DNA of 64,000 nt. Origin: Lachnoclostridium sp. Marseille-P6806 (GTDB lineage: Bacteria > Bacillota > Clostridia > Lachnospirales > Lachnospiraceae). The DNA lies in the NCBI RefSeq assembly GCF_900625025.1, contig NZ_LR130581.1, positions 1 to 64,000 on the forward strand. The letters are read 5' to 3'. A program made the translations under genes and the position numbers. This document shows positions 2,811 through 37,560 of this stretch, one piece after another. Below the pieces are notes generated by a model. It was given only the letters and a program-made list of their open reading frames with translations, did no database searches and was not told where the DNA came from. The stretch's first letter is position 1; each line of letters starts with the position of its first letter.

Positions 2811-4061
2811 TCACACGCGGGGCGGCAGTGCGCCCCGCTTTTTATTTCTCTTCTGCAAAAGCAGGAGCCAGAGCAGCATCAGAATCGGAAACACGATCGC
2901 CGCAAGAATACCGGTTTTCAGATGATTGCCGGAGGCGGCCGCCACGGTTCCGACCACGGTCGGCCCCAGCGAGCAGCCCGCGTCCCCCGCGAGAGCGAAG
3001 AGAGCGAACATCAGCGTCCCGCCGTTCCGTATTCTCGGCGAAGCAATGCTGAACGTCCCCGGCCAGAAAATACCGACGGAAAAGCCGCACAGCGCGCAGC
3101 CGAGAAGCCCCAGAGCCGGCGCCCTGCTCAGCGCGATGAGAAGATAGCAGGCCACGCACAGCAGCGCGCTCCACAGCATGAAGCGCTCCAGCCGGAGCCT
3201 CTCCCCGAATTTTGCAAAGACAGACCGCGACGCCCCCATAAAGAGCGCGAACATCATCGGTCCCGCGAGATCGCCCAGCGTCTTGCTGACGCCGAGACCC
3301 GACTCCGCAAAGGCAGACGCCCACTGACTCACCGCCTGCTCCGACGCCCCCGCGCAGAGCATCATCAGCATGATGAGCCAGAACAGGCGCAGCCGGACAA
3401 GCTCTCTAAGGCGCAGCCCTTTTTCTCCCTCTCCGATGAGGTGCGCCACCGGCACAAAGAAAAACAGCAGCAGATTGCAGAGCGGCACCAGCGCCCAGAG
3501 AACCGCCATGATTTTCCACTGCCGTATCCCGGCAAAATGAAAAAACAGCGTGGAAATCAGAACAACTCCCATCTGACCCCAGCAGTAGAACGAGTGGAGC
3601 AGGCTCATGGCCTGCTCCTTGCGTTTTGTCGGGCACGCCTCCACGATGGGGCTGACCACCACCTCGAGAAGACCGCCGCCCACCGCATAGATAAGCACCG
3701 AAATCAATATTCCCGCAAAGGGATCCGACATCCGCTCCGGCAGAACGGTGAGAAGAAGCAGGCCCGCCGCCGCAAAGGCATCGGCCAGAATCATTGCGGC
3801 ACGGTAGCCGATGCGGTCGATAAAGCCTGCCGAAACCATATCGATCAGAAGCTGCAGCGCAAAATTAAAGGTTGCAAGAAACGTGATCCGCGACAGCGGA
3901 AGCCCGTACTGTGCACCGAACGTCAGAAACAGAAGCGGCACAAAATTGTTGACGATCGCCTGCACGATGTACCCCATGAAGCAGGCATATAATGTATGGT
4001 CGTAGCGGAGCGCACTCCCGCCTCTTCTTTTGCTTTTCCCGACATTCTTATTCATATTCAT
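2811..4061 (-). CDS. Major facilitator superfamily transporter
   Basis: 416 aa with about twelve hydrophobic helices and the usual central loop, typical of MFS carriers; the FLTFGAQYGLPLSRIT start of helix 2 and the RIGYRAAMILAD loop resemble the sugar/unknown-substrate group related to FucP-like permeases. N-terminal MNMNKNVGKSKRRGG is a basic cytoplasmic tail. The gene is alone, convergent with nhaC and divergent from the DUF362 gene. Its GC content (about 60%) is clearly higher than that of patB-nhaC. Substrate is unknown. Confidence 0.88.
   Translation of the reverse strand: MNMNKNVGKSKRRGGSALRYDHTLYACFMGYIVQAIVNNFVPLLFLTFGAQYGLPLSRITFLATFNFALQLLIDMVSAGFIDRIGYRAAMILADAFAAAGLLLLTVLPERMSDPFAGILISVLIYAVGGGLLEVVVSPIVEACPTKRKEQAMSLLHSFYCWGQMGVVLISTLFFHFAGIRQWKIMAVLWALVPLCNLLLFFFVPVAHLIGEGEKGLRLRELVRLRLFWLIMLMMLCAGASEQAVSQWASAFAESGLGVSKTLGDLAGPMMFALFMGASRSVFAKFGERLRLERFMLWSALLCVACYLLIALSRAPALGLLGCALCGFSVGIFWPGTFSIASPRIRNGGTLMFALFALAGDAGCSLGPTVVGTVAAASGNHLKTGILAAIVFPILMLLWLLLLQKRNKKRGALPPRV
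2817..2846 (+). terminator. Intrinsic terminator after nhaC
   Basis: GCGGGGCG (2817-2824) pairs with CGCCCCGC (2831-2838) across a six-base loop and is followed by TTTTTATTT on the + strand. It ends the patB-nhaC transcript and overlaps the last codons of the convergent MFS gene. Confidence 0.85.
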
Positions 4062-25148: not shown

Positions 25149-26039
25149 CTAAAACAACGTAAGCAGAACCAGAAGAAGAAGGAGCGGTATGGAAAGAAGC
25201 GGCGCGATCACCAGAGGCTCGATCTGCACGGCCTCGGCAATGAGGCGGATATTCCCCGCCTCTGTCCGGTTTTCTATCCGGTGTCCCCGGATCAGAAGCC
25301 GGTGCGTATTGATCCCGTAGGGCGTACAGGTGATCAGCGTGCAGTAGTCCTTCCCCTCCGCGATCTGCAGCGCGGACACATCCTGCGGCTCCACGATCAG
25401 GATCTGATCCACTTCATATGTGAGCGTCTCATCGAGTACCCTGAGCAGAAAAATATCCCCCGCAGACAGCTTGTCCAGATCCGTAAAGAGACGGCTCGAG
25501 GGAAGCCCCCGGTGTCCGGACAGCACGCTGTGGGTGCTTTCGCCCCCCACCGGCAGGCTCGTCCACGCAAGATGCCCCACCGCCCTCTGCAGCACCGCGT
25601 CCGAGGTGCCGTGGTAGATCGGAAGCATCACCTCCAGAGAAGGGATCTCAATATAGCCCATCGCACCGCTCCTGCTGATATCAAGAAGCCCCGGATATGC
25701 CACTTCCTGTTCTTCCGTGAGTTGATAGGGATTGTCCCGCGAAGAAAGAGAAGCATTATAGATCTCCGCTTTCTGCCGCAGCTCCCCACATACCGCCGCA
25801 TCAAGCCCCTCCACCTCCTGCGCATAAGCAGCGATCTCTCTCGTCTGATGGAGCACATTGATATAGTTGCTGAGCGAGGGATACAGCACCAGCGACAGGC
25901 CTGTCACAAATGCCGCAAGGAGACCGAACGCCGCCGTTTTCCTGTTTTTTTCACGGGAGGGGTACCTCCTCTCAGGCGCAGCGCCGGGAAGCAGCTCTCT
26001 CCTCCCCCCCGGCACGCCACCGTAAAAGGACCGGCTCAC
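25149..26039 (-). CDS. srtC: Class C (pilus-polymerising) sortase
   Basis: 296 aa. Two membrane spans flank the catalytic core (N-terminal FGLLAAFVTGLSLVLYPSL; C-terminal IAPLLSIPLLLLLVLLTLF), a lid-like segment with SSRDNPYQL, catalytic histidine in VLSGHRGLP, cysteine in TLITCTPYG and arginine in HRLLIRGHR. These are the hallmarks of class C sortases, which join pilin subunits by lysine-threonine bonds. It overlaps the backbone pilin gene by four bases (ATGA), so translation is coupled. Confidence 0.95.
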   Translation of the reverse strand: MSRSFYGGVPGGRRELLPGAAPERRYPSREKNRKTAAFGLLAAFVTGLSLVLYPSLSNYINVLHQTREIAAYAQEVEGLDAAVCGELRQKAEIYNASLSSRDNPYQLTEEQEVAYPGLLDISRSGAMGYIEIPSLEVMLPIYHGTSDAVLQRAVGHLAWTSLPVGGESTHSVLSGHRGLPSSRLFTDLDKLSAGDIFLLRVLDETLTYEVDQILIVEPQDVSALQIAEGKDYCTLITCTPYGINTHRLLIRGHRIENRTEAGNIRLIAEAVQIEPLVIAPLLSIPLLLLLVLLTLF

Positions 26040-27487
26040 TTCCGCTCCGCTCTCAGCTTTCTGCGGGTGATGAAGACCGTGACCGTGCCGACAAGAAGCA
26101 GTCCGCCCACCGCATAGAAGAGCGTCGTGCCGATACCGCCCGTCTCCGGAAGCGTCGTACCGGACTTATTGGGGATCTCTGATTTCTGCGATACACCGAT
26201 GCCGAAAGTACCACCGCCGCCCGATGTCGTGGTGTGGGTTATTTTCACCTCCACGTCATGATCGAGCAAATTAAAACCCTGTGGCGCAATTGTCTCGCGA
26301 AGATAGTAGGTGCCATCCGACAGGCCAATGAATTCCAGCGCGCCCTGGCTATCCGTCTTCTTCACCGTCGCCTGCGTCATATCACTTACCCATGACACAG
26401 TGTCAGTCGCGGCATCATATTTATAAAAGCTCTCAACCCCGCCACTCTTCTTCACAAGAATGAATGAGGCATCCGGCAGCTTCTTTGACGGCGCGGACGC
26501 ATCGTATTTGTCCACCACAATCTTCGAGGTATAAACCTCCTTCTCCACCGGAGGTGTGGTCGTCGTTCCTCCCATGGGGTCATTGCTATACTCGAGCGTC
26601 GCACTGTTCTTCGTCAGCGTCACTACTGCATTCTTATTCACCACCGCGCTGTAGGTAATCGTGATCGCCTGCCCCTTATACTGCTGATAATTCACCATGT
26701 CGAAACTCAGGGTAAATCCGTTGCTCGCATAGCTTGGTGCCACGCTGATCGGCGTTCCTCCGAACTTCACACTGAAATTCGCCGTGGTATTGTTGAATGT
26801 GAGCCCGGGGCTCATGGTATCTTTCACCTCATACTTATAGCTCGCGTACCCTGTCGTATCTGGCACCTTGCCTGTGACGGTGAATGTCACTGTCTGTCCA
26901 ACCTCCACATCCTGATCGTTCACACTCTTTTCGATCTCAGGATAGGTTGCCTTCACATTCACCGTCGCCGTCGGCACCGTCGAGGTTAGAGAGCAGATCG
27001 AGCCATAACTCCCCCCGATATCCGTTGCCCCCTGCGGATAAACCAAATAGTAGCCAAGAGGAAGACCCGTAAACTGCACCGTCGTCCCCGTGGCAACCTT
27101 GGTGTCATCCGCGGGCTTTGCCGCCGCATAGGCGAGCGCCGCCTGCGCAAATGCCGCGATGTTGCTGTCCGTGATGTTGATGTAGTAAGTGGTCCCGTTA
27201 TGCGTCAGTTGATTGAGCCCCGGCGTCGCCGTCTGGGCCAGGTAGGCTGCCCCCGGCGCTCCCGCTCCGATGAAAAAATTCACCCAATCGGGATCGATCG
27301 TGTACGAGACATTCGTCCCCGTCGCCGACTTCGTCAGGTCAAATATCTTGTAGACATCATAGGTCTTGCCCGTCGTGGCTCCGTTGACCGTAATCTGCCC
27401 GTTGTTGTCCGCAAGAACCGTCGTCGCTGTCGCAAGGAACAGCAGAACGGCCAGCAGGGCGGAAAAAATTCGTTTCATTCCTTTCAT
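26036..27487 (-). CDS. Backbone pilin (SpaH/EbpB family, isopeptide-forming)
   Basis: 483 aa. Signal peptide MKGMKRIFSALLAVLLFLAT; N-terminal pilin domain; Cna-B domain with the E-box glutamate in YLRETIAPQGFNLL; sorting signal LPETGG at residue 446 with membrane span and RRKLRAERK tail. Isopeptide bonds of Lys-Asn type are expected inside the domains. The lysine that class C sortase would use is not in a clear YPK pilin motif: the equivalent place reads KATYPEIEK. ATG 27487 is preceded by GGAGGAGAG. It is probably the shaft subunit. Confidence 0.93.
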   Translation of the reverse strand: MKGMKRIFSALLAVLLFLATATTVLADNNGQITVNGATTGKTYDVYKIFDLTKSATGTNVSYTIDPDWVNFFIGAGAPGAAYLAQTATPGLNQLTHNGTTYYINITDSNIAAFAQAALAYAAAKPADDTKVATGTTVQFTGLPLGYYLVYPQGATDIGGSYGSICSLTSTVPTATVNVKATYPEIEKSVNDQDVEVGQTVTFTVTGKVPDTTGYASYKYEVKDTMSPGLTFNNTTANFSVKFGGTPISVAPSYASNGFTLSFDMVNYQQYKGQAITITYSAVVNKNAVVTLTKNSATLEYSNDPMGGTTTTPPVEKEVYTSKIVVDKYDASAPSKKLPDASFILVKKSGGVESFYKYDAATDTVSWVSDMTQATVKKTDSQGALEFIGLSDGTYYLRETIAPQGFNLLDHDVEVKITHTTTSGGGGTFGIGVSQKSEIPNKSGTTLPETGGIGTTLFYAVGGLLLVGTVTVFITRRKLRAERK

Positions 27488-27543
27488 GGTGCTCTCTCCT
27501 CCAAATGATAATGATTCTGTTTCCCGGGAGTTCCGTTCGGTGC

Positions 27544-30500
27544 TTACGAAATATCGCCGGGGAAGGTGCGTCTCTTATTCTGCCTTTCCCTCCTTTCCTG
27601 TTCGTACCTCAGCAGTATATAGCCCGCTGCCATGGCAGCCGTGCACAGCGCCGTCCCGCCAAGCAGATAAGGAAGTATGCCGTGCCCCCCCGTTGAGGGG
27701 AGCGTCACTCCGGTATTATTCACCACCTCGACCGCCTGATCCCGCATGACGGTGACAGAGGCCGTATCGCCCTGACTGAGCGTTGTCCCTCCCGCGGTGG
27801 TATTTTTGATAAGAACCGAATAGCCCTCATGGCCCGTCTCCGTAACGGTCGCCGTCGTACCCACGGGAACCCCTGGGAGCGTCACACTCTCCCCGTTCCG
27901 GAGGGAAAATGTCACATCTCCCGTAATCGAATCCACTGCATACAGCGCCGGGCTCGCCGTATCCGCCGGGAGGATCACCGTTCCGCCATCCGCATCCCGG
28001 AGCGTTATCTTGAACGGGAAGCTGCCCGCCCCGCCGCCGATGACCGTCTTCTTGACCGTAAGCGCCACCCTCGCCTGTTTCACCTCGGCAGAGACCGGTA
28101 CAGTATAAACCGGAGCCGGGATCGACGGTGTATTGTAGGCTGCGTCATTATAGTACACATCCCTGTCTCTGTTTCCCGAAAGGTTCAGCGTGACGGTGAT
28201 CCGGATCTTGGCGTAGGCCCCGACATTTGTCCCCTTGAAGTGCAAAAGAGTCGGCGTTGTCCCCGCGGGGAGCGTCAATGTCGTAACATGACCGGAAACA
28301 GATGCCACGGCCGCCGTATAGGACGATGTAAATCCGGGGTCGAATACCGCATCCTCATGCCCCTGCACGGAGGTTTCCGTCGTATAATCCAACGCATACT
28401 GCCCCGCCGCGTCATTCAGACGCTCCACCGTCACCGCACTCACTGTATAGCTCCCGTGAAAGCTGCTTCCCCTCTGGTCTCCGTTGTATGGCAGGAGATC
28501 AGCGATGTGCATCGTCGGGATCGCCACACTGCTGTTGTTAATGTAAGTGATCGTGTAGATCGCCGGCTTGTTGACATCGATTTCCGGCGTGACAATATTC
28601 TTCTGAATGGTCGCATTCTCCAGACGGAACACATGGATGGTCGCTGTGGAAAGATTGCCGTAAGAACCATGGAACGTCTTGCGGCTGTTGGTCGAAAAGA
28701 TGTTCGCCGTATTGGTAAGGGACTCTCCGTCCCGCACATCATACAGCGGATCGTCCACATTGCCGATCCGGGCACTGTAGTAGAGCCTGGGCATCTCCTG
28801 TCCGACCTGCACGTTGGTAAGGATCCATTTAAGCTGTGTTGAACCATCTCCGTTCGGCGTGATAGCCAGCGTTACATCGCCGACGGTTGCCGCCGAAACA
28901 GGCGCACCTGTAACGGTTCCGTTATCGGTAAGTGCCGTGCCACCCGTGACAGTTCCATGGCTCTTGCGGTCCGGCGGCTGACTGTATGTGCCGCCAAGGA
29001 CTGCGCTCCCGGGAACATAGCGCAGCCCCTTGGGCAGCGTATCCGTAACCGTCACAGTTGTCATCGCGACACCGGAAGTCGGAACATTGGAGGCATTCGC
29101 CATCACGCGGGGAGAGAGAACATAGTCCACGTTCCGTTCCCCGCTGTCGATGAAATAGCTGCTTCGCGGTGCACCGTCCTGCTCCTGCGCAACGCTCTTG
29201 GTAATTTGGGCATTTTCACCGATGACTTTGATGGTACTGCCTGAAAATGCCTCTCGGTATACATCGCGCTCAGCAACTACATATCCTGCAAGATAATATT
29301 TCTGCATCGTTGTGCCTATCTGCGAAATATCATATTGCTGATCAAATGACGACAGAACATGCTTGAAAAAGCCAACTTTTTCCGTGTAAACAGAATAATC
29401 AGGAATTTGATTGGGGTTGGTATAACTATGAATATAATTTGTGGCTTTTGGAAGCACGGCACTGGTTTCGCGCGAAGTCGTAATGTTTGTTGCATATGAC
29501 CGGCTCTCTAAAATCAGCTCCTGTATGGAATCTACGGGCGCAGATTCCTTTACCATCATCTTTATCCATGGCTGAAAAACTATATTGCCGTTGGTATCCT
29601 CCAGTACCGGCAGTCCCGCCGGATTCCTGATTTCCAGCCATACGCCTACACATGTTGCCCCTGCTGCCTCCAACGCACTGAGGGATGTATAAACCCGAAG
29701 ATTTCCGCTTTCATGCATATTGGTTGTCAGCATCTCTTCTCTGTTAATCCATGTCGTCCCATCCGCTTTGGCCACATATAATGTTCTGATGTTTAAATTC
29801 ACACTATTCGCATTAGCTGCAATCAAATCTGTATTTGTGAAATGGGCCCCTGCCGCATCCGGGCTGATGCCGTCTGTGAATTTAATAAAAAAATCCGCAC
29901 AATATAATTTGGAATTGTATGTACTCTGATGCCACAAAGCAGTAACAAATGGTGTTTCTTTCACATATGCTGCCGCCGAGGAATTGATAGTTCCAATTCC
30001 GATTGCCTGAATAAAATCCCCGTTTGGTACATTATTAAAAAACAGACGCGCCCGATTGTCTGACGTACCGGTTTCCGATTTATCCGTATCGGCATCTGCC
30101 ACCGAAGTCCCATTGATTGTAATCATGTCAGCAATGTCACAGAAAGAAGTGTATTTGCCAGGCTCAGTCAACTCTCCCGTCGGATAGAACACCTGTATCA
30201 CGCCACTGGCAAGAAGCGCCTCTGAACTGTTAAAGGCGGACGCCATAGTCGCCGAATGGGTCGGAAATATGTAGTCCGAATCAATTCCGATAAAATCTAT
30301 TTTGATTCCCTGCCCGGATACCTTAGCCGCCGTCATATTGCCGGACTTGAAAACCGCATTTTTCTCATTTCCCAAGCTTCTGTCAGAATAGGGCAGCTGG
30401 TTTCTTCCTGACGAAACGTTCGTATCAACGTTCAAAAAAGGCGCACACAGATCCCGTCCCTGTAATCCATTACCGGAGTTTGTCACAAGCGCATATTCCC

Positions 30501-33078
30501 ACATTTCCGGACCATCAGAGACATAGGATGAGAGCAACGATCCATCCTTATAAAACTGCGGCTGCACATAGAACGAGACAGATTGCAGATCCACATAGAT
30601 TCCCCGCAGTCCCTTGGCACTGTCTGTACTCACGGCAGATATATATATCCCACAATCCACAAGCTGGCCGACTGTGCCGCTGCCAAGTTGTCCTGTATTC
30701 GTGTCAAGCTTAATGTTCTTCACAATATTGATCGGCCGGATGGAAACGTTATAATGCGCCGCCGCACTGACAGTTACGGCCCCCGGTGTAATACTCTTTG
30801 CCTTCGGCTTATCCAGCCACAGTTTGAAAGAAGGCTCCACCATGCTCCCATTTGGCATCCCCTTGACCGCCACAGCAAGCTTCAGCGTACCGGTGGCCGG
30901 GATGGCAAAATCATGATCCCCCGCATCCATGGCATAGCAGCCCGTAAGCGTCTGGCTTGCGCCGTGATCTGTAATCGCCGCATCTTTCATCCACGGCATG
31001 GCACCCAGATCGAAGGCCGCTTTCTCCTTAGATAAGGGAAGAACCGCCTCCACGTACAACTTTCCTTTCCGGTAACCGGAAAAGACCCCCTGATATTTAT
31101 CCGTCAGGTTCAGCGTGTAGCCGACATTATAGAAAATCGTATCAAAGGAACGCACGATGTCGTTGAGCGAGCTGGAATCATTCCCCGGCGCATTATCCGC
31201 ATCCCACGGAGCCGTGCCCGTGACCATCCTGCAGTTCACCGCCGTCACCTCACCGGTGTTCGCCACATAGCTTTCACCCACTCCGCCCGCTGGTGCGTCG
31301 GTCACGCCGATCACCAGCTCACTTCCATCGGAAAACGTGATTATCAGCCTCTCTTCGGTATTAAAAGCTTTCCGGGAGATCAGCTTCCACCCCTCCCCGG
31401 TTTCTTCCGCCGAGATAAGCGCGGGATCGCTGAATGTGACACCGATCACAGAACCGGTATCACGGTCGATATTCAGACTCTCGAACAGTTCAGAAAGAAG
31501 CAGCTCGTCCTTGCCGAGGATACTGTAATCGTACTCTCCGTAATGGAAATCCACGGTAAAGGTGACTCCGTAAAGCGAAAAATGATCCGTCTCTAAAAAG
31601 ATTTCTCCGTTTCTGTCCGTCGTGCCCGACATGTCCTCCGCCGTTTTATTCCCCGTATCCACATGGAATACCTGTGCATCGGCTTTCGGTGCCTCAATTC
31701 CCGCAAAGGAAACAGTGACCGCTCCCTCCGGCTGCACTTCTTCTTTCCCACGCAGCACACGGATGTCAAAGAGCAAAGTCTCCCGCCGCACGCTCTTCTT
31801 ATCTTCCGCTCCTGCCTCCGACTCAATCAGACGCTTCGCCGCAGCGTCCTGTGTCTCAGAAACAGACAAAGAGAGCTCCCTCCCGGCCGCGTCGAACGAA
31901 GCCGCAGGCGCCCGCAGCGTGATCGTCACACCGTCCCCGGCTTTCGCCTGAAGCACGATCTCCTCTTTCTTCTCCGCTTTTCCCTCTTTCTCTGCTTTCT
32001 CCTCCTGCTTTCGCGGAGCATCCGGGTTTTCCGGAAGCCGCCCGTAGCAAAGGATCGAAGAATTCGAAAGATCATAGCGGCGGCTCACCACACGATCCCC
32101 CGCATTTCCCTCGATCACCTGCACCGCTTCCGGAACTCCGCTCTCATCCCTCTCTGCTTCCCATACAAGACCTACATGGTCTGCCTCTCCCGAGCCGTCA
32201 CGATCAAAAAATACGAGATCCCCCCGCTCCGGTCCCTCGGCAGCCGAAAAGCACAGCCCTTTCGCTTCCAGCGCATCCACCCAGCGCGGGCAGCTTGAGT
32301 CAAAGGGAAAAAGTGCGGGATCCACGCCTGCATAATGCAGGCAGAATGAACAGAACATCGCACACCAGTTGCCGTATCGATCCCCATACCAGTCGCCGTA
32401 CCGGGTATAACCCCGCCGCTCCCCTCTCTCGTCATAGATGAAATTCCGCGTGCTCTCGGCATAACCAAGCTGCATGTCAGCAACAGCCAGCACATCCTCT
32501 GCCCAGTTTCCGCTCCGATGTATGCCGCAGAACAAGGATTCCCACGCTTCCTGTGATTCCACATCCGCTGTCGGATCCCCCTCCGCAAGGAGCTCTTCCT
32601 CTTTTTTCTCCTCTTCTTCCTCGGTCTCCGGTTCCTCCGTGATCCCCTCTCCGGCCTCTTCCTCTGACTCCTCCGTGTCCGGATAGCAGGACGGCGTGTG
32701 CACATGCTCCTCCTTTCCGCAGAGCAGGATGCGTTCCGTCGAGTAGCAGTTCTCGTCATGCGTATGGCCCGGCATCTCCTCAAGACCGCAGGAAAGCTGC
32801 CCCTCCTCGTCACAGCAGCTCCCGTCATGCATATGACCCGGGGTCTCCTCGAGATCACAGGAAAGGTACATCCTCTCCTCATAGCATGCTTCGCTGTGCA
32901 CATGCTCCTCCCGGCCACAGACCGAAGTATGCTCCATCGTGATTGCCGGAAGAATCAGCGCATAGGTTGTCACAAAAACAACGACCGCCGAAAGCACACT
33001 GACGCAGCGCCGCCAGCACTTTCTTCGGCCGCGCTGCGCTCTGATTTCCTCCGTCCGCCGCTTTACTGCCTTATCCAT
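27544..33078 (-). CDS. Giant LPXTG pilus tip protein with CHAP amidase domain
   Basis: 1844 aa. N-terminal membrane/signal segment (VSVLSAVVVFVTTYALIL), then four to five His/Cys repeats of the type C-G-x-E-E-H-x-H-x-x-x-C-Y at about residues 52-130, an acidic linker, a CHAP domain (about 195-345; cysteine in NWCAMFC, about C237, histidine in ADHVGLV, about H300), a long beta-rich region with Cna-B-like and DUF11-like domains, and the sorting signal LPSTGG at about 1793 with a basic tail. It is the largest subunit and the first structural gene of the operon, so a tip adhesin with wall-hydrolysing activity is likely. Whether CHAP is active cannot be told from sequence. Confidence 0.9.
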   Translation of the reverse strand: MDKAVKRRTEEIRAQRGRRKCWRRCVSVLSAVVVFVTTYALILPAITMEHTSVCGREEHVHSEACYEERMYLSCDLEETPGHMHDGSCCDEEGQLSCGLEEMPGHTHDENCYSTERILLCGKEEHVHTPSCYPDTEESEEEAGEGITEEPETEEEEEKKEEELLAEGDPTADVESQEAWESLFCGIHRSGNWAEDVLAVADMQLGYAESTRNFIYDERGERRGYTRYGDWYGDRYGNWCAMFCSFCLHYAGVDPALFPFDSSCPRWVDALEAKGLCFSAAEGPERGDLVFFDRDGSGEADHVGLVWEAERDESGVPEAVQVIEGNAGDRVVSRRYDLSNSSILCYGRLPENPDAPRKQEEKAEKEGKAEKKEEIVLQAKAGDGVTITLRAPAASFDAAGRELSLSVSETQDAAAKRLIESEAGAEDKKSVRRETLLFDIRVLRGKEEVQPEGAVTVSFAGIEAPKADAQVFHVDTGNKTAEDMSGTTDRNGEIFLETDHFSLYGVTFTVDFHYGEYDYSILGKDELLLSELFESLNIDRDTGSVIGVTFSDPALISAEETGEGWKLISRKAFNTEERLIITFSDGSELVIGVTDAPAGGVGESYVANTGEVTAVNCRMVTGTAPWDADNAPGNDSSSLNDIVRSFDTIFYNVGYTLNLTDKYQGVFSGYRKGKLYVEAVLPLSKEKAAFDLGAMPWMKDAAITDHGASQTLTGCYAMDAGDHDFAIPATGTLKLAVAVKGMPNGSMVEPSFKLWLDKPKAKSITPGAVTVSAAAHYNVSIRPINIVKNIKLDTNTGQLGSGTVGQLVDCGIYISAVSTDSAKGLRGIYVDLQSVSFYVQPQFYKDGSLLSSYVSDGPEMWEYALVTNSGNGLQGRDLCAPFLNVDTNVSSGRNQLPYSDRSLGNEKNAVFKSGNMTAAKVSGQGIKIDFIGIDSDYIFPTHSATMASAFNSSEALLASGVIQVFYPTGELTEPGKYTSFCDIADMITINGTSVADADTDKSETGTSDNRARLFFNNVPNGDFIQAIGIGTINSSAAAYVKETPFVTALWHQSTYNSKLYCADFFIKFTDGISPDAAGAHFTNTDLIAANANSVNLNIRTLYVAKADGTTWINREEMLTTNMHESGNLRVYTSLSALEAAGATCVGVWLEIRNPAGLPVLEDTNGNIVFQPWIKMMVKESAPVDSIQELILESRSYATNITTSRETSAVLPKATNYIHSYTNPNQIPDYSVYTEKVGFFKHVLSSFDQQYDISQIGTTMQKYYLAGYVVAERDVYREAFSGSTIKVIGENAQITKSVAQEQDGAPRSSYFIDSGERNVDYVLSPRVMANASNVPTSGVAMTTVTVTDTLPKGLRYVPGSAVLGGTYSQPPDRKSHGTVTGGTALTDNGTVTGAPVSAATVGDVTLAITPNGDGSTQLKWILTNVQVGQEMPRLYYSARIGNVDDPLYDVRDGESLTNTANIFSTNSRKTFHGSYGNLSTATIHVFRLENATIQKNIVTPEIDVNKPAIYTITYINNSSVAIPTMHIADLLPYNGDQRGSSFHGSYTVSAVTVERLNDAAGQYALDYTTETSVQGHEDAVFDPGFTSSYTAAVASVSGHVTTLTLPAGTTPTLLHFKGTNVGAYAKIRITVTLNLSGNRDRDVYYNDAAYNTPSIPAPVYTVPVSAEVKQARVALTVKKTVIGGGAGSFPFKITLRDADGGTVILPADTASPALYAVDSITGDVTFSLRNGESVTLPGVPVGTTATVTETGHEGYSVLIKNTTAGGTTLSQGDTASVTVMRDQAVEVVNNTGVTLPSTGGHGILPYLLGGTALCTAAMAAGYILLRYEQERRERQNKRRTFPGDIS

Positions 33079-33081
33079 CCC

Positions 33082-33714
33082 TTAAAATCTCCCGTTCTGT
33101 CCGTCCCCGACCCCGCCGAAATGCGACAGCGGCCAGACGCGGAACACGATACGGCCCACAATCTGTTCTTCCGCGATGCATCCCACCGCGGTATTCCGGC
33201 TGTCCGCCGATGTCGAGCGGTGATCTCCCATGACAAAGTAACGTTCATCCGGTACCTGATAGGGAAGACCAATGTTGACATCTCCCAGCGCTTTATCCAT
33301 AAGATACGGCTCCTCGAGCATCTCTCCGTCGACATACACGGTGCCCTCACCGTCGATATCCACCCACTGCCCCGGTCCTGCGATCACACGCTTAACAAGG
33401 AGTTTATTCCCCACGTACAGACCGACGATATCCCCGGTCCGAAAGCTACTTCCCTTCAGCGAAACAACGATCTCTCCCTCACAGAGGGTCGGAGTCATGG
33501 ACTTACCATAGATGCGCAACACCGGCAGCCAGATTGTCGCGACCAGCACCGATACCGCCGCCACCACCACAAGAGAAAAAAGGGTGCTGCGCAAGGTCGC
33601 ATGATACCGGCGGGCATCCTGCTCCCTCCGCAGTGCTTCCTCCGCCTCTCCGGACGTCGGGAGTATGACAACGGTTCCTCTCTGTTTCATACGCTCCTTT
33701 TGTCCACTCCTCAT
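33082..33714 (-). CDS. Pilus-operon signal peptidase I
   Basis: 210 aa. One N-terminal membrane span (LFSLVVVAAVSVLVATIWLP), catalytic serine in GKSMTPTLCEG, lysine in LLVKRVIAGPGQ, and the box E segment PDERYFVMGDHRSTSADSR. Such dedicated signal peptidases in pilus clusters (SipA/LepB-like) may act as chaperones for pilins; here both catalytic residues are present. Start at ATG 33714, which overlaps the upstream stop as ATGA, showing translational coupling. Three bases separate it from the tip protein. Confidence 0.93.
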   Translation of the reverse strand: MRSGQKERMKQRGTVVILPTSGEAEEALRREQDARRYHATLRSTLFSLVVVAAVSVLVATIWLPVLRIYGKSMTPTLCEGEIVVSLKGSSFRTGDIVGLYVGNKLLVKRVIAGPGQWVDIDGEGTVYVDGEMLEEPYLMDKALGDVNIGLPYQVPDERYFVMGDHRSTSADSRNTAVGCIAEEQIVGRIVFRVWPLSHFGGVGDGQNGRF

Positions 33715-34253
33715 GACTGCGTCTGCTTTTCAGCAAGAAGCCCTACAAACTCCCTGAGCCCCTGCCGCTCGTGATACAGTGCCTCCAGACGAGACGACAG
33801 ATCGCTCCAGTACCGCTCTGCCTCCTCCCGACTTCGCTCATTTTGTCTCTGTGCCTCCAGGCGAATCCCCTCGGCCTCCTGCTTTGCCTCCGCAAGAATT
33901 GCCTCCGCTTTCTTCTGTGCATCCGAGATCAACTGCAGTGAAAGCGAGCGCTGGTCCCTGCTCAGACGCTCGATATTCTCCTTATACTGAACCACCGCCT
34001 GCTCCGCATCCGCAAAGATATGACTGAGCTGCAACGACGCCTCCGCGATATTCCCCGCATCCTGAAGCGCGATCCGCCGCTCGTTCCGCTCCGTTTCCAA
34101 CGCGGAAAGTTGTTCTTCCTGCTCCTCGAGCTTCTTCGACTGGAGGAATATCACCTCCAGCAGCTCCGCGCGGCTGTACTCCCGAAGCTTCCCCGACGGT
34201 TCCCTTGCTGGGCCTGCAACGACAGCCAGCGTCCGATGTTTCCGTTTCATCAT
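33711..34253 (-). CDS. Coiled-coil protein, first gene of the pilus operon
   Basis: 180 aa from ATG 34253 (MMKRKHRTLAVV). A motif LREYSRAELLEVIFLQSKKLE resembles the N-terminal lipid/polar-binding part of DivIVA/GpsB-like proteins, followed by a long heptad-rich coiled coil (about residues 45-175) ending EFVGLLAEKQTQS. Similar proteins head pilus operons in Lachnospiraceae and may place the assembly machinery, but the function is unknown. An earlier in-frame start at 34442 is rejected because it would read across the inverted repeat and lacks conserved sequence. Confidence 0.75.
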   Translation of the reverse strand: MMKRKHRTLAVVAGPAREPSGKLREYSRAELLEVIFLQSKKLEEQEEQLSALETERNERRIALQDAGNIAEASLQLSHIFADAEQAVVQYKENIERLSRDQRSLSLQLISDAQKKAEAILAEAKQEAEGIRLEAQRQNERSREEAERYWSDLSSRLEALYHERQGLREFVGLLAEKQTQS

Positions 34254-34360
34254 TTTCCCTTTTTGTTTTCCATTCCCGAAAGAAACATAGCTGAAAGCTT
34301 CCGAAACAGCCAAAGTTCCATCGCTTTCATCTTTTCCCTGTTCTTCTGCGGTGTGCCAGC

Positions 34361-34394
34361 GCAATACCACATAATAAGAATTATGTGGTATTGC
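34361..34394. repeat. Left inverted-repeat site of the candidate invertible segment
   Basis: Palindrome with arms TACCACATAAT and ATTATGTGGTA around the centre AAGA (34365-34390); the symmetry extends to 34361-34394. The same 26 bases occur in exact reverse orientation at 36376-36401, where the centre reads TCTT. Only the central four bases give the site a direction. It lies between the pilus operon start and the regulator start, so it may be a recombination site, an operator, or both. Confidence 0.8.
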
Positions 34395-34466
34395 AGCGTC
34401 TTCTGTCTGGAAGCGCCGGTCCGCTGGCCTCTTTGCACACAAAGTGCACAGGAAGGGGAGACCGTC

Positions 34467-36215
34467 ATGACCTTTTCAGAAATACTGAACCAATACATCG
34501 AAGAACTCGGCAGCAGTGCCAGAAGACTGGCCGGGACCTGCGGCTGCTCCGAGGCGGCTCTCAGCCGCTATCGAAACGGACACCGCCTGCCGGACGAAGC
34601 TGCACTTCGCCGACTTGCGGCGGGTATTGCACGGTTAGCCGCAGAAAGACAGCTCACAGCGCTTTCCTGGGAGCGCGTGTATGATGAACTTTCTCAGGCT
34701 TCTCAAAAGGCAGGTGAGAACTTCCCGTATGAGATCCTGCGCGTCCGTCTCTCCCTCCTTGTCCGGGAATTGGACATCCGTCTGGGAGAGCTCGCTCTTT
34801 ACTGCAGCATAGACAAGTCATTCCTTTCCCGCATCTGCTCCGGGAAAAGACGGCCGCACGAACCAGAATGGGTCATCGACCGGGTTTCCCGCTATGTCGT
34901 GCACAGCTATACTGGAGAGGGCGACAGGAGGAGGGTCTTTGCGCTTATCGGGTATCATAGCACCTGTTCTGCGGATGAGGATGCATATCGGGAAATGCTC
35001 GCTGCCTGGCTTTCAGGGAAGAAAAGGACAGGCAAAACGGCCGTCTTCACGCCGCCGGAGCATCACGCGGTCTTTGCTCCAGAGGAGTTTTTCTGCGCAC
35101 GCTTGTTTGGAACAGAGGCGCTTCTTCCGTTCCCCTTGTCGTTCCCTTCTATAAAAAGCTACCATGGCACACCGGGCATGGAGCAGGGGCTCGTGGAGTT
35201 TCTCCAGGCGACGGTTTCCGCAAAATCCCGGCAGGATATCGTGCTGTACGGCGATCACCCGATGGAACACTGCCTCGGCAGTCCTGAATTCCTCGGCCAG
35301 TGGATGCAGGGGATGGCCGCTCTCCTCCGAAAAGGACTTCACGTCCATGTGATCCATCATATCGGCCGGCCTTTTTCTGAGTTGCTTCCGGGCCTTGAGG
35401 CATGGCTTCCTCTCTACATGACCGGTCGGCTTTCCGGCTACTACCTTGACGGACCGAAAGAAAAACTTTTTTCTCATCTGCTTCTGGTTTCCGGCGGTGC
35501 GACGTTCTCCGGCAATGTCATGCCCGACTGCCCGGAGAGCGGGCACTACACGCTCTGCAGAACAGGTACTGATGTCGCGTGCGGCCGCTTCCGGGCCAAT
35601 CACCTCCTGCGGCACTCCCATCTTCTCATGGATATCTGCGAGGAAAGCTGCGCCGAGGCGCTCGAAAGGCTTCTTCAGCAGGAAATGGCTTCCTCCGCCC
35701 CCTGCCGGCGGCTTCTGACCGCGCCCCCAGTCCATACCATCAGCGACCATCTTCTCGAAAAGCTCCTTGCCCGCAGTCATATCACCCCGGACATGGCGGA
35801 ACCCATCCGGGCATATGTCCGGGCATCGAGAAAAAGGATACGGCATCTCTTAAAGCGCAGCACACTTGAAGAAATCATCTCCCTGTGGTCTCCGGAGGAA
35901 TATACCCGCGCCCCCGTCCCGCTCTCCCTTATCTATCTCTCCGGCGGAACCGACGTGTACTACAGCTACGAGGAATACCGGGAACATCTCCGGGAAACCG
36001 AGGCATTTGCCGCTCATTGCAAAGGGTATCAGCTCACATTTGACCGGACCCCCTGTCTCCGGAACATCCAGATCACGCTCCGTCCAGGGGAATATGCCGT
36101 CATCTCAAGGAACAGAGCGCCGAATCTTCACCTTGTACTGCACCATCCGCGACTGCTTGAGGCGATCGGTCGTCTTATGGACAGCAAAAAGCCTGAACGC
36201 ATGTTCAGGCTCTGA
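34467..36215 (+). CDS. Large regulator with two N-terminal HTH domains
   Basis: 582 aa. Two successive helix-turn-helix segments: ARRLAGTCGCSEAALSRYRN (about residues 19-38) and GELALYCSIDKSFLSRICSG (about 106-125), both Xre-like. The rest (150-582) is a mixed alpha/beta sensor-like part with blocks such as DIVLYGDHPMEHCLGSPEFL and VHVIHHIGRPFSELLPGLEA; I recognise no named family. ATG at 34467 follows GGAAGGGGAG. It is divergent from the pilus operon and lies wholly within the two inverted sites, next to a tyrosine recombinase. Probable job: control of the pilus operon (inference). Confidence 0.8.
   Translation: MTFSEILNQYIEELGSSARRLAGTCGCSEAALSRYRNGHRLPDEAALRRLAAGIARLAAERQLTALSWERVYDELSQASQKAGENFPYEILRVRLSLLVRELDIRLGELALYCSIDKSFLSRICSGKRRPHEPEWVIDRVSRYVVHSYTGEGDRRRVFALIGYHSTCSADEDAYREMLAAWLSGKKRTGKTAVFTPPEHHAVFAPEEFFCARLFGTEALLPFPLSFPSIKSYHGTPGMEQGLVEFLQATVSAKSRQDIVLYGDHPMEHCLGSPEFLGQWMQGMAALLRKGLHVHVIHHIGRPFSELLPGLEAWLPLYMTGRLSGYYLDGPKEKLFSHLLLVSGGATFSGNVMPDCPESGHYTLCRTGTDVACGRFRANHLLRHSHLLMDICEESCAEALERLLQQEMASSAPCRRLLTAPPVHTISDHLLEKLLARSHITPDMAEPIRAYVRASRKRIRHLLKRSTLEEIISLWSPEEYTRAPVPLSLIYLSGGTDVYYSYEEYREHLRETEAFAAHCKGYQLTFDRTPCLRNIQITLRPGEYAVISRNRAPNLHLVLHHPRLLEAIGRLMDSKKPERMFRL
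36185..36211 (-). terminator. Intrinsic terminator of the recombinase transcript, inside the regulator 3' end
   Basis: AGCCTGAAC (36190-36198) pairs with GTTCAGGCT (36203-36211) over GCAT. The minus strand continues with TTTTTG, the plus strand has no T-run, so it stops leftward transcripts from the recombinase gene. It lies in the last codons of the regulator and would reverse its direction if the segment inverts. Confidence 0.75.
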
Positions 36216-36263
36216 TTGCCGCAGGAGGCAACGGCTTCTATGCAGAGTTGCCGCAGGAGGCAA
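36216..36263 (+). repeat. Two copies of a 16-bp self-complementary repeat
   Basis: TTGCCGCAGGAGGCAA occurs at 36216-36231 and 36248-36263, period 32. Each copy can pair TTGCC with GGCAA and holds a CAGGAGG like a ribosome site. A TATAAT hexamer follows at 36284-36289. Their place just inside the right inverted site means they would come to lie upstream of the pilus operon after inversion. Role unknown. Confidence 0.55.
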
Positions 36264-36375
36264 TGAAAATTACCGAAAAATCGTATAATATAGCATTATA
36301 GTTTCGTTTTTTGTTCGTGGTTTGCCGGGCAAAACATTTCTCAAGGAACGTCTTCATGGTTCTGATTCTGTCGTT

Positions 36376-36401
36376 TACCACATAATTCTTATTATGTGGT
36401 A
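36376..36401. repeat. Right inverted-repeat site of the candidate invertible segment
   Basis: Arms TACCACATAAT and ATTATGTGGTA around TCTT, the exact reverse complement of the site at 34365-34390. It is 12 bases downstream of the recombinase stop and about 160 bases downstream of the regulator stop, i.e. between two convergent gene ends, a place where a promoter operator would be unusual but a recombination site is typical. Confidence 0.8.
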
Positions 36402-36413
36402 CATACCTGGCCG

Positions 36414-37250
36414 CTAGGTCACAAGCCTCAACTTTTCGATGAGACGCAGATGCTCCCGTCCGCTGCTCACAAGGTAGATCCGCGTGGTATTCACCGTCGA
36501 GTGGCCAAGAATATCCGCCAGTCTGACCAGGTCCCTTTTGATCTGATAGAACGCTCTGGCAAACAGACGACGCAGGCTGTGGGGGTATACCTTAGATGGG
36601 TTTACCTTGGCCAAAAGACAAAGCCTTTTCATCTCCGACCACACATTGCTCCGATCAAGGGGCCGGCCGCCGCGCGTCCGGAAAAGGATCCCCTCACGGA
36701 TTCCCTCCGACCTCGCATACAAAAGAAGCTTGCGGCGGAGCTTTACCGGGAGCAGCACCGTTCGCATTTTATTTTTGCACGACACCGTGACGCTCCCCTT
36801 CCGGACCGCCTCCACTGTGAAAAAGCACAGCTCCGAGATGCGGATTCCCGTGCTCCCCAGAGTCTGCAGAACAAGGCTCAGCCGAGGTTTCTTCTCCGCC
36901 GCCTGCAGAAGACGGAAATATTCCTCTCTTGTCAGTTCCCGCTCCACCGGACAATAAACCGGCTTCTGAATCCGAAGTGTACGCACACAACAGTCTTTCC
37001 AGCAAAGAAAGCCGAACAGCTTGTGAAGGCTTGCCAGCATGGAATTGATGCTGGCCGGCGCATAGCCCTCGTTCTGCAACGCCTTCTTATATCCGATCAC
37101 CCTTTCCCTAGTCACCGTACAGCCCCCCATATAGCGTAGGAACGCCCGCGCATCCCGCAGATATTTCTCTATGGTGACCGCACTTTTCTCTTCCTCAGAA
37201 AGGCGCCGTACAAAACCCTGCAGTGTCTCCTCCGTCAGTTTCCGTATCAT
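36414..37250 (-). CDS. Tyrosine recombinase (phage-integrase/XerC-like)
   Basis: 278 aa. N-terminal SAM-like core-binding domain (TIEKYLRDARAFLRYM), then a catalytic domain with arginine in TGIRISEL, lysine in KNKMRTVLLP, HSLRR (H-x-x-R), GHSTVNTT histidine and the tyrosine nucleophile in TRIYLV. All active-site residues are present. Start at ATG 37250 after GGAGGACAATATT. The size is that of DNA invertases and XerC relatives rather than phage integrases with an arm-binding domain. It adjoins the right inverted site, so it is the candidate enzyme for inverting the regulator segment. Confidence 0.92.
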   Translation of the reverse strand: MIRKLTEETLQGFVRRLSEEEKSAVTIEKYLRDARAFLRYMGGCTVTRERVIGYKKALQNEGYAPASINSMLASLHKLFGFLCWKDCCVRTLRIQKPVYCPVERELTREEYFRLLQAAEKKPRLSLVLQTLGSTGIRISELCFFTVEAVRKGSVTVSCKNKMRTVLLPVKLRRKLLLYARSEGIREGILFRTRGGRPLDRSNVWSEMKRLCLLAKVNPSKVYPHSLRRLFARAFYQIKRDLVRLADILGHSTVNTTRIYLVSSGREHLRLIEKLRLVT

Positions 37251-37323
37251 AATATTGTCCTCCGCATCCACCAAGCATCAAGAAGATCATAACGAATTTT
37301 CGGAGCGATTAGTGAATGTGTTT

Positions 37324-37560
37324 TTATTTTAGCATAAGAATTTTACCCAGAATATCACGATACCTCACAAGACTTACATCTCCATACTCTGCCGCCCTTA
37401 CTCTGCCGCCCTGTCTGCACATTCCCCGGCAAAGCCGGATTTTGCGGCAGAACCCGGGATAAGCATATAGCTTTCCTGCTCCATAAAGGCATAGAGCCCT
37501 GCTTCCTGATAGAAAAATCCGCACACCGGCCCTTTCCGCTTGACAGAGGGCCTCCATGCA
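37324..37560 (-). pseudogene. Unidentified gene relic with a 14-bp tandem duplication
   Basis: The minus strand encodes a plausible protein tail GFFYQEAGLYAFMEQESYML...GECADRAAE that hits a stop; removing one copy of a 14-base duplication (ACTCTGCCGCCCT at 37386-37398 and again at 37400-37412) joins it to EYGDVSLVRYRDILGKILML ending at 37324. No family recognised. The rest of the 330-base gap to the next gene holds only that gene's promoter. Confidence 0.35.

Follow-up and report, generated by a model that had tools for sequence, protein, structure and literature searches.

The locus

The window analysed here is a stretch of 64,000 nucleotides from Lachnoclostridium sp. Marseille-P6806 (positions 1 to 64,000 of contig NZ_LR130581.1). 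Its subject is a two-kilobase segment that carries a complete regulator gene and is bounded by inverted copies of a 26-bp site, with a tyrosine recombinase gene outside the right site and a pilus operon outside the left one. Comparison with related loci makes it very likely that this segment is an inversion phase switch (inverton) worked by the adjoining recombinase. The defining features are as follows.

34365..34390, no strand: putative left crossover site, TACCACATAAT-AAGA-ATTATGTGGTA (exact match in the window)
34391..36375, no strand: segment between the sites, 1985 bp, predicted to invert (site positions and comparison)
34467..36215, plus strand: regulator of 582 amino acids (aa), two XRE-like helix-turn-helix (HTH) regions followed by a predicted phospholipase D (PLD)-fold part, possibly like that of TrmB/TrmBL2 (HTH_31 and HTH_3 profiles, AlphaFold2, Foldseek)
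36376..36401, no strand: putative right crossover site, centre TCTT (exact reverse complement of the left site)
36414..37250, minus strand: XerC/D-like tyrosine recombinase, 278 aa (profile matches, alignment, catalytic residues)

This layout had been proposed in a first-pass annotation of the sequence, and its parts were all recovered. Both copies of the 26-base site are exact, the right one being the reverse complement of the left. The regulator is one complete gene whose open reading frame (ORF) runs on the plus strand from an ATG at 34467 to its end at 36215, wholly between the sites. The pilus operon (25149-34253, minus strand) shares the orientation of the recombinase, lies beyond the far (left) site and reads away from it. 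The recombinase, directly outside the right site, matched PF00589 at 9e-21 in the profile search. Tyrosine recombinases share the catalytic set R-K-H-R-H-Y, and all six residues are present here (R137, K161, H224, R227, H250 and Y259). The stop codon of the gene lies 12 bp from the right site, at which its 3' end points.

Matches to the recombinase at E <= 1e-25 were obtained in 72 of 299 genomes of the same family, and a search of 62 genomes of the same genus gave matches in 9, the source genome being included in both counts; the best other match in the genus was 47% identical. Across 18 aligned relatives, identity to the window protein ranged from 45% to 58%. The named records found with related recombinases were one metagenome-assembled genome each of Oscillospiraceae, Clostridia and Treponema.

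Site pairs at related recombinases

The sites conform to a 26-bp palindromic pattern, TACCACATAAT-N4-ATTATGTGGTA. With up to three mismatches allowed, this motif matched twice in the window and never in 100 shuffles, and in the whole genome (3,125,999 bp) it matched at these two places only. A chance repeat was ruled out by the lack of shuffle matches and by the uniqueness of both sites in the genome. The exact 26-mer was absent from the viral contigs searched.

Related recombinases provided the decisive comparison. The site test set consisted of 65 recombinase ORFs with BLAST E <= 1e-30 in the neighbourhoods L097-L156, L003 and L004, and further sites were sought by arm sequence only, with at most two mismatches and within about 2.6 kb. 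Near the 3' end, 17 ORFs showed no arm-matching site and 13 showed a single one (in several cases close to where the contig stops); the other 35 had one or more further sites, the matched sites lying 179-425 bp apart. The arms shared within the recombinase family are ACATAAT/ATTATGT, around a 4-nt centre that is matched in inverse. All 35 loci with a further site had one carrying the exactly inverse centre, and the centres themselves vary widely between loci. Counted by site, 37 of 38 further sites had the inverse centre, the exception being a second, extra site in L003; the chance of such a centre is 1 in 256 per site. A tyrosine recombinase requires an identical crossover region in both partners, and an operator does not. 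Because the locus-specific centres match in inverse in every one of these loci, the comparison firmly indicates that the 26-bp sites are crossover sites of the recombinase, not operators.

A larger set comprised 125 recombinase ORFs at E <= 1e-25 from L097-L156, L169-L225, L003 and L004; it extends to relatives of 27% identity and counts a few genes twice (e.g., L126/L225 and L124/L197). The pair search in this set required a matched centre, so the centre rule is tested by the 65-ORF set only. Centre-matched pairs were found at 76 of the 125 ORFs, 70 of them spanning 169-487 bp and 6 spanning 637-991 bp. The pair in the window, 2011 bp apart start to start, is the longest examined and alone in having a regulator inside; two of the six longer segments hold an ORF of 100 or 182 aa, as called by a simple ORF caller. 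The neighbourhoods fetched represent part of the recombinase matches. The same caller missed the recombinase expected in L110, and the set leaves out L226-L228 and L005. A search with the core motif found it in 42 of the 299 same-family genomes, and the matches listed were mostly pairs with inverse centres. The look into related genomes that the first-pass annotation had suggested returned, in the neighbourhoods fetched, the same kind of pair at the 3' end of many related recombinases. L113 shares the gene order, running from the recombinase 3' end through a site, a segment and a second site to a pilus operon, as in the window, with its sites 324 bp apart.

Individual sites show additional architecture. 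The left palindrome of the window spans 34361-34394, with 15-base arms that reach four bases per side beyond the part common to both sites; the flanks of the right site do not have this extension, which a flip would therefore break. L213 contains, at 3490-3943 (G250:C2:187889-188342), a switch with three tandem 18-bp cores at either end, 34 bp apart; the centres are all AACA at one end and all the inverse of this at the opposite end. Three same-genus pilus switches of 0.8-1 kb (L128 7434-7697, L127 8105-8296 and L131 10805-11132) hold 4-7 half-sites (ATTATGCGGTA and similar) inside the segment, mostly about 53 bp apart, which are possibly accessory binding sites of the recombinase.

Probable inversion of the segment

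From the sequence comparison we infer that the segment flips in the source species, and several features of its relatives agree with mixed orientations. In the short segments, -35/-10-like pairs with 11 or 12 matches of 12, scored without a shuffle control, face the operon in some loci and the recombinase in others. The best pair points one way in L144 and L156 and the opposite way in L003 and L101, and several segments have weak pairs in both directions or none. Furthermore, the L131 segment aligned to that of L128 with a score of 59 when inverted, against 22 in the same sense and 30 for the best of 100 shuffles, although the L131 contig ends within the segment and the alignment lies partly on repeated half-sites. 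The segments of L127, L129 and L130 align to L128 in the same sense. Thus, L131 and L128 seem, on moderate evidence, to be two same-genus loci in opposite orientation. Additionally, a contig end lies less than 300 bp away on the 3' (switch) side of 17 of the 125 recombinase ORFs, as against 5 on the 5' side, an excess that mixed orientations would cause.

Other results speak against an active switch of this kind. Comparison strongly supports the flip by the neighbouring recombinase that the first-pass annotation had proposed, but no flipped copy of the window locus was found among the 62 same-genus genomes, which represent one genome per species. In the 125-ORF set, 29 ORFs yielded no centre-matched pair under the thresholds used even though over 1.5 kb of sequence follows them. 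The backward control pattern also occurred in 15 of the 299 same-family genomes, mostly once.

The single orientation seen would suit a locked or dead switch, in which sites and recombinase are intact and insertion of the regulator has frozen the segment; a segment more than four times as long as the longest of the 70 short ones points the same way. However, decay would not be expected to keep perfect sites and a complete recombinase, the family includes segments of 637-991 bp, and two same-genus loci appear to be oppositely oriented, all of which makes a frozen segment improbable. Far less credible still is the proposal, raised as an alternative in the first-pass annotation, that the palindromes serve the regulator as ordinary operators and that no recombination takes place. 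Long palindromes do flank a double-HTH regulator on both sides. Nevertheless, such palindromes go with the recombinase and not with the regulator, since 20 neighbourhoods of regulator homologues contained a single match to the site motif, with two mismatches and unpaired. The inverse matching of the centre in 35 of 35 loci likewise contradicts it, given that a dimeric repressor need not read the centre. Operators without recombination were ruled out on these two grounds, the matched centres and the association of the sites with the recombinase.

The regulator within the segment

Sequence profiles detected only the first HTH of the regulator; the second became visible in the structure model. 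In the AlphaFold2 model (mean pLDDT 82.9, pTM 0.61), the two helix-turn-helix regions are accompanied by a long alpha/beta part. The best Foldseek match was a polyphosphate kinase (2.4e-6), and PLD-fold proteins were also matched. Archaeal TrmBL2 followed at 7e-5 over 173-184 columns and TrmB at 1.7e-2 over 161 columns, with whole-chain TM-scores of about 0.2 and HTHs that are XRE-like. It is a fair guess from these matches that the protein senses a ligand.

Full-length homologues of the regulator (16 aligned, at 26-34% identity) offer a view of its usual setting. Among the 19 homologues with a neighbour on that side, 16 are divergent from the adjoining gene, at a distance of 27-268 bp. Ten of these 16 neighbours were scanned: two carried leucine-rich repeats (LRR), fn3, M4 protease, MscS and TPR families were found once each, and four had no family, so that 4 of the 10 (LRR twice, fn3 and M4 protease) are of surface or secretion type. 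No operator motif common to the divergent intergenic regions of 15 homologues was apparent by eye. The designation as pilus regulator in the first-pass annotation is an interpretation that gains some ground here, because homologues usually stand divergent beside another gene and several of those genes encode surface or secreted proteins.

Searches of the other recombinase neighbourhoods fetched gave no regulator homologue, the threshold being E <= 1e-4 for L097-L156, L003 and L004 and E <= 1e-25 for L169-L225; 20 neighbourhoods of regulator homologues likewise gave no recombinase homologue. It seems that a local regulator of an adjoining operon became trapped between the paired crossover sites of a phase switch.

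Segment ends and present state

The two non-coding ends of the segment differ in composition. The left end (34391-34466) is 60.5% GC and has no good promoter, whereas the right end is 42.9% GC overall and 35.7% from 36264 on. The right end contains the following.

36188..36213, minus strand: intrinsic-terminator-like hairpin overlapping the regulator 3' end, with T residues after it on that strand (scan without shuffle control, and fold)
36216..36231, no strand: palindrome TTGCCGCAGGAGGCAA, copy 1, operator-like or RNA hairpin (repeat search)
36248..36263, no strand: palindrome TTGCCGCAGGAGGCAA, copy 2 (repeat search)
36284..36289, plus strand: TATAAT -10-like hexamer, outward to the right, with a weak -35 ATGAAA at a spacing of 15 (sequence only)

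In the present orientation the TATAAT at 36284 reads toward the recombinase 3' end; after inversion this candidate promoter would face the pilus operon. The 16-bp palindrome TTGCCGCAGGAGGCAA has no exact copy elsewhere in the genome, and the centres of its two copies lie about 40 and 72 bp upstream of the start expected for such a promoter. Since the one AT-rich end that resembles a promoter faces away from the pilus genes at present, we lean toward the view that the present orientation is pilus OFF.

The mechanism we propose is that the recombinase (36414-37250) recombines the two 26-bp sites, whereupon the two-kilobase segment would turn and pilus expression would change. The flip would aim the AT-rich right end, with its TATAAT and paired palindromes, into the pilus operon. 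It would also leave the regulator downstream of the recombinase gene and reading the same way, where co-transcription is possible; in the present state, the terminator-like hairpin would shield the regulator 3' end from recombinase read-through. The regulator may act on a promoter travelling with the segment or on its own adjoining intergenic region. The first-pass annotation had instead envisaged transcription through the flipped regulator into the pilus genes. This is possible but not the best supported route, as the AT-rich right end provides a promoter-like stretch that would face the operon once inverted, resembling what is seen in the relatives' short segments.

The evidence on promoters and state is not uniformly favourable to this scheme. 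The -35 of the proposed TATAAT promoter is poor. The standard promoter scan returned 1 site against 2.0 in shuffles and the standard terminator scan 2 sites against 3.5, the hairpin at 36188-36213 not being among them; since these are fewer than in shuffles, the promoter and terminator assignments draw on position and comparison only. The sole promoter-like match of the standard scan, a weak CAGACA-18-CATAAT pair with its -10 inside the left site, now points into the pilus operon and favours a present ON state. Moreover, the divergent placement seen in 16 of 19 regulator homologues is the arrangement here at present.

The last two points would fit a version of the same inversion switch in which the present orientation is ON: the divergent regulator would activate a promoter that spans the left site, and inversion would part regulator from operon. 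The surface- or secretion-type neighbours of 4 of the 10 scanned homologues also lend it some credit. Against it stand the GC-rich left end, which has no promoter-like site other than that weak pair, and the location of TATAAT and the repeated palindromes at the opposite, AT-rich end; on balance, we regard a present ON state as the less likely of the two. Alternatively, the right end might encode a minus-strand small RNA moved by inversion, in place of an operator-controlled promoter. The two palindromes read as UUGCC-UCCUGC-GGCAA with anti-Shine-Dalgarno-like centres, and together with the terminator-like hairpin they occupy 36186-36290. On the minus strand this interval has a folding energy of -37.8 kcal/mol (z -4.7) and U residues trail its last hairpin, and TATAAT is also readable on that strand at 36295-36300. 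However, the plus strand folds almost as well (z -4.25), and the predicted structure pairs one palindrome with the other and does not give each its own hairpin. An Rfam scan of 33900-37500 gave no family, only one sub-threshold snoRNA match, and no relative was available for assessing conservation. We consider a small RNA unlikely.

A more ambitious form of the inversion switch is a self-contained flipping circuit, in which a ligand-sensing regulator would lie on the same inverting piece as the promoter and operators under its control. We put this forward tentatively. If it were true, one recombination event would aim a promoter at the pilus operon and shift the regulator from a promoter-poor spot into the recombinase transcription unit, and the state of the switch, the level of activator and the level of recombinase would be coupled.

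Relation to known switches

Gene-bearing invertible pieces of kilobase size are known from the Salmonella H segment, which carries its own serine recombinase, and from the Moraxella pilin inversion, whose piece carries pilin genes; to our knowledge, neither carries a regulator. Promoter-only (fimS-like) elements have no complete gene in the flipped DNA, unlike the window segment with its 582-aa regulator. E. coli fimS resembles the window in having a recombinase and a pilus operon, although no gene lies in the flipped piece. The distinction that the first-pass annotation drew from promoter-only switches, a whole regulator as cargo, is borne out by the other recombinase neighbourhoods fetched, where no regulator homologue was found. 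Short, invertible-promoter-like loci with recombinases of this family (e.g., L113, L146, L154 and L003) share with the window the order and orientation of the recombinase, the ACATAAT/ATTATGT arms and the matched 4-nt centre, and beyond the far site they have an operon for pili or other surface structures. They differ in spanning 169-487 bp without a regulator, compared with 2011 bp including one.

In the literature, invertible promoters such as fimS are described as the classical kind (PMC7241687), and the Moraxella pilin inversion is among listed cases (PMC11868660). A 2025 Microbiome survey of a defined gut community, with inversion detected from reads, found that 952 of 1837 invertons intersect coding sequence (PMC11892184). 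Its inverton group 139 and invertase group 35 are of particular relevance: 32 of 33 invertons come from Clostridia and are statistically linked to a tyrosine-type recombinase group. Like the window segment, the group 139 invertons are bounded by inverted repeats and linked to tyrosine-type recombinases; unlike it, they have no regulator cargo mentioned in the accessible text. Compared by description and not by repeat motif, group 139 may well be the same family as the window switch, though this is a guess. The RecV switches of Clostridioides difficile are likewise recombinase-driven inversions ahead of surface or signalling genes in Clostridia, but one recombinase there acts on several segments (PMC5903667, PMC7241687). 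In the same species, one switch lies ahead of a two-component regulatory operon whose regulators are outside the flipped piece, and the segment Cdi7 spans a 228-nt ORF, so a gene inside a segment has precedent (PMC5903667). The literature consulted, mostly papers readable without subscription, showed no case in which a tyrosine-recombinase inverton placed before a pilus operon encloses a regulator gene. As far as could be seen, the cargo is new and the switching machine is already known.

Invertible promoters are a source of random variation in pili and capsules. A switch with its own regulator in the moving part would join random switching to sensing, each orientation giving a different regulator output. 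The locus offers a clear testable case, with a defined recombinase, defined sites and one operon. Furthermore, the sequence rule that emerged from the comparison (ACATAAT/ATTATGT arms and inverse-matched 4-base centres beside a recombinase 3' end) can be used to find such switches in assembled genomes without reads.

The pilus operon and genes behind related switches

The operon outside the left site comprises five genes, all on the minus strand, and a possible leader.

34250..34330, minus strand: candidate leader ORF of 26 aa with a Shine-Dalgarno-like AGGGAAAAG; it overlaps the first pilus-operon gene at its start (sequence only)
33711..34253, minus strand: coiled-coil/DivIVA-like protein, first gene of the operon (match below the Pfam cut-off; start codon)
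33082..33714, minus strand: signal peptidase I of the pilus operon (profile matches)
27544..33078, minus strand: CHAP-domain surface or tip pilin-like protein, 1844 aa (profile match)
26036..27487, minus strand: backbone pilin with GramPos_pilinBB, SpaA and LPXTG anchor (profile match)
25149..26039, minus strand: sortase (profile match)

The pilus operon of L113 corresponds to it, with identities of 56% for the signal peptidase, 39% for the CHAP protein, 33% for the pilin and 59% for the sortase. A pilus-type gene was among the first three downstream genes at 11 of the 52 recombinase ORFs that have downstream genes. Scanning 10 other downstream proteins revealed five of surface type, namely an LRR/dockerin protein, one with Listeria-Bacteroides repeats, an adhesive pectate-lyase-like protein, a choline-binding protein and a VWA/tip pilin. 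Of the remaining five, two belonged to no family, and the others were a signal peptidase, a TIR-domain protein and a protein of polysaccharide synthesis.

In L119, L120, L133 and L137, two different tyrosine recombinases stand in tandem, at pilus-type loci in L120 and L133; the site scans found no ordinary site pair at these four loci. In L104 (3312-5942), the first gene behind a predicted invertible segment of this family encodes a protein with TIR and TPR domains, a candidate phase-variable defence or signalling gene.

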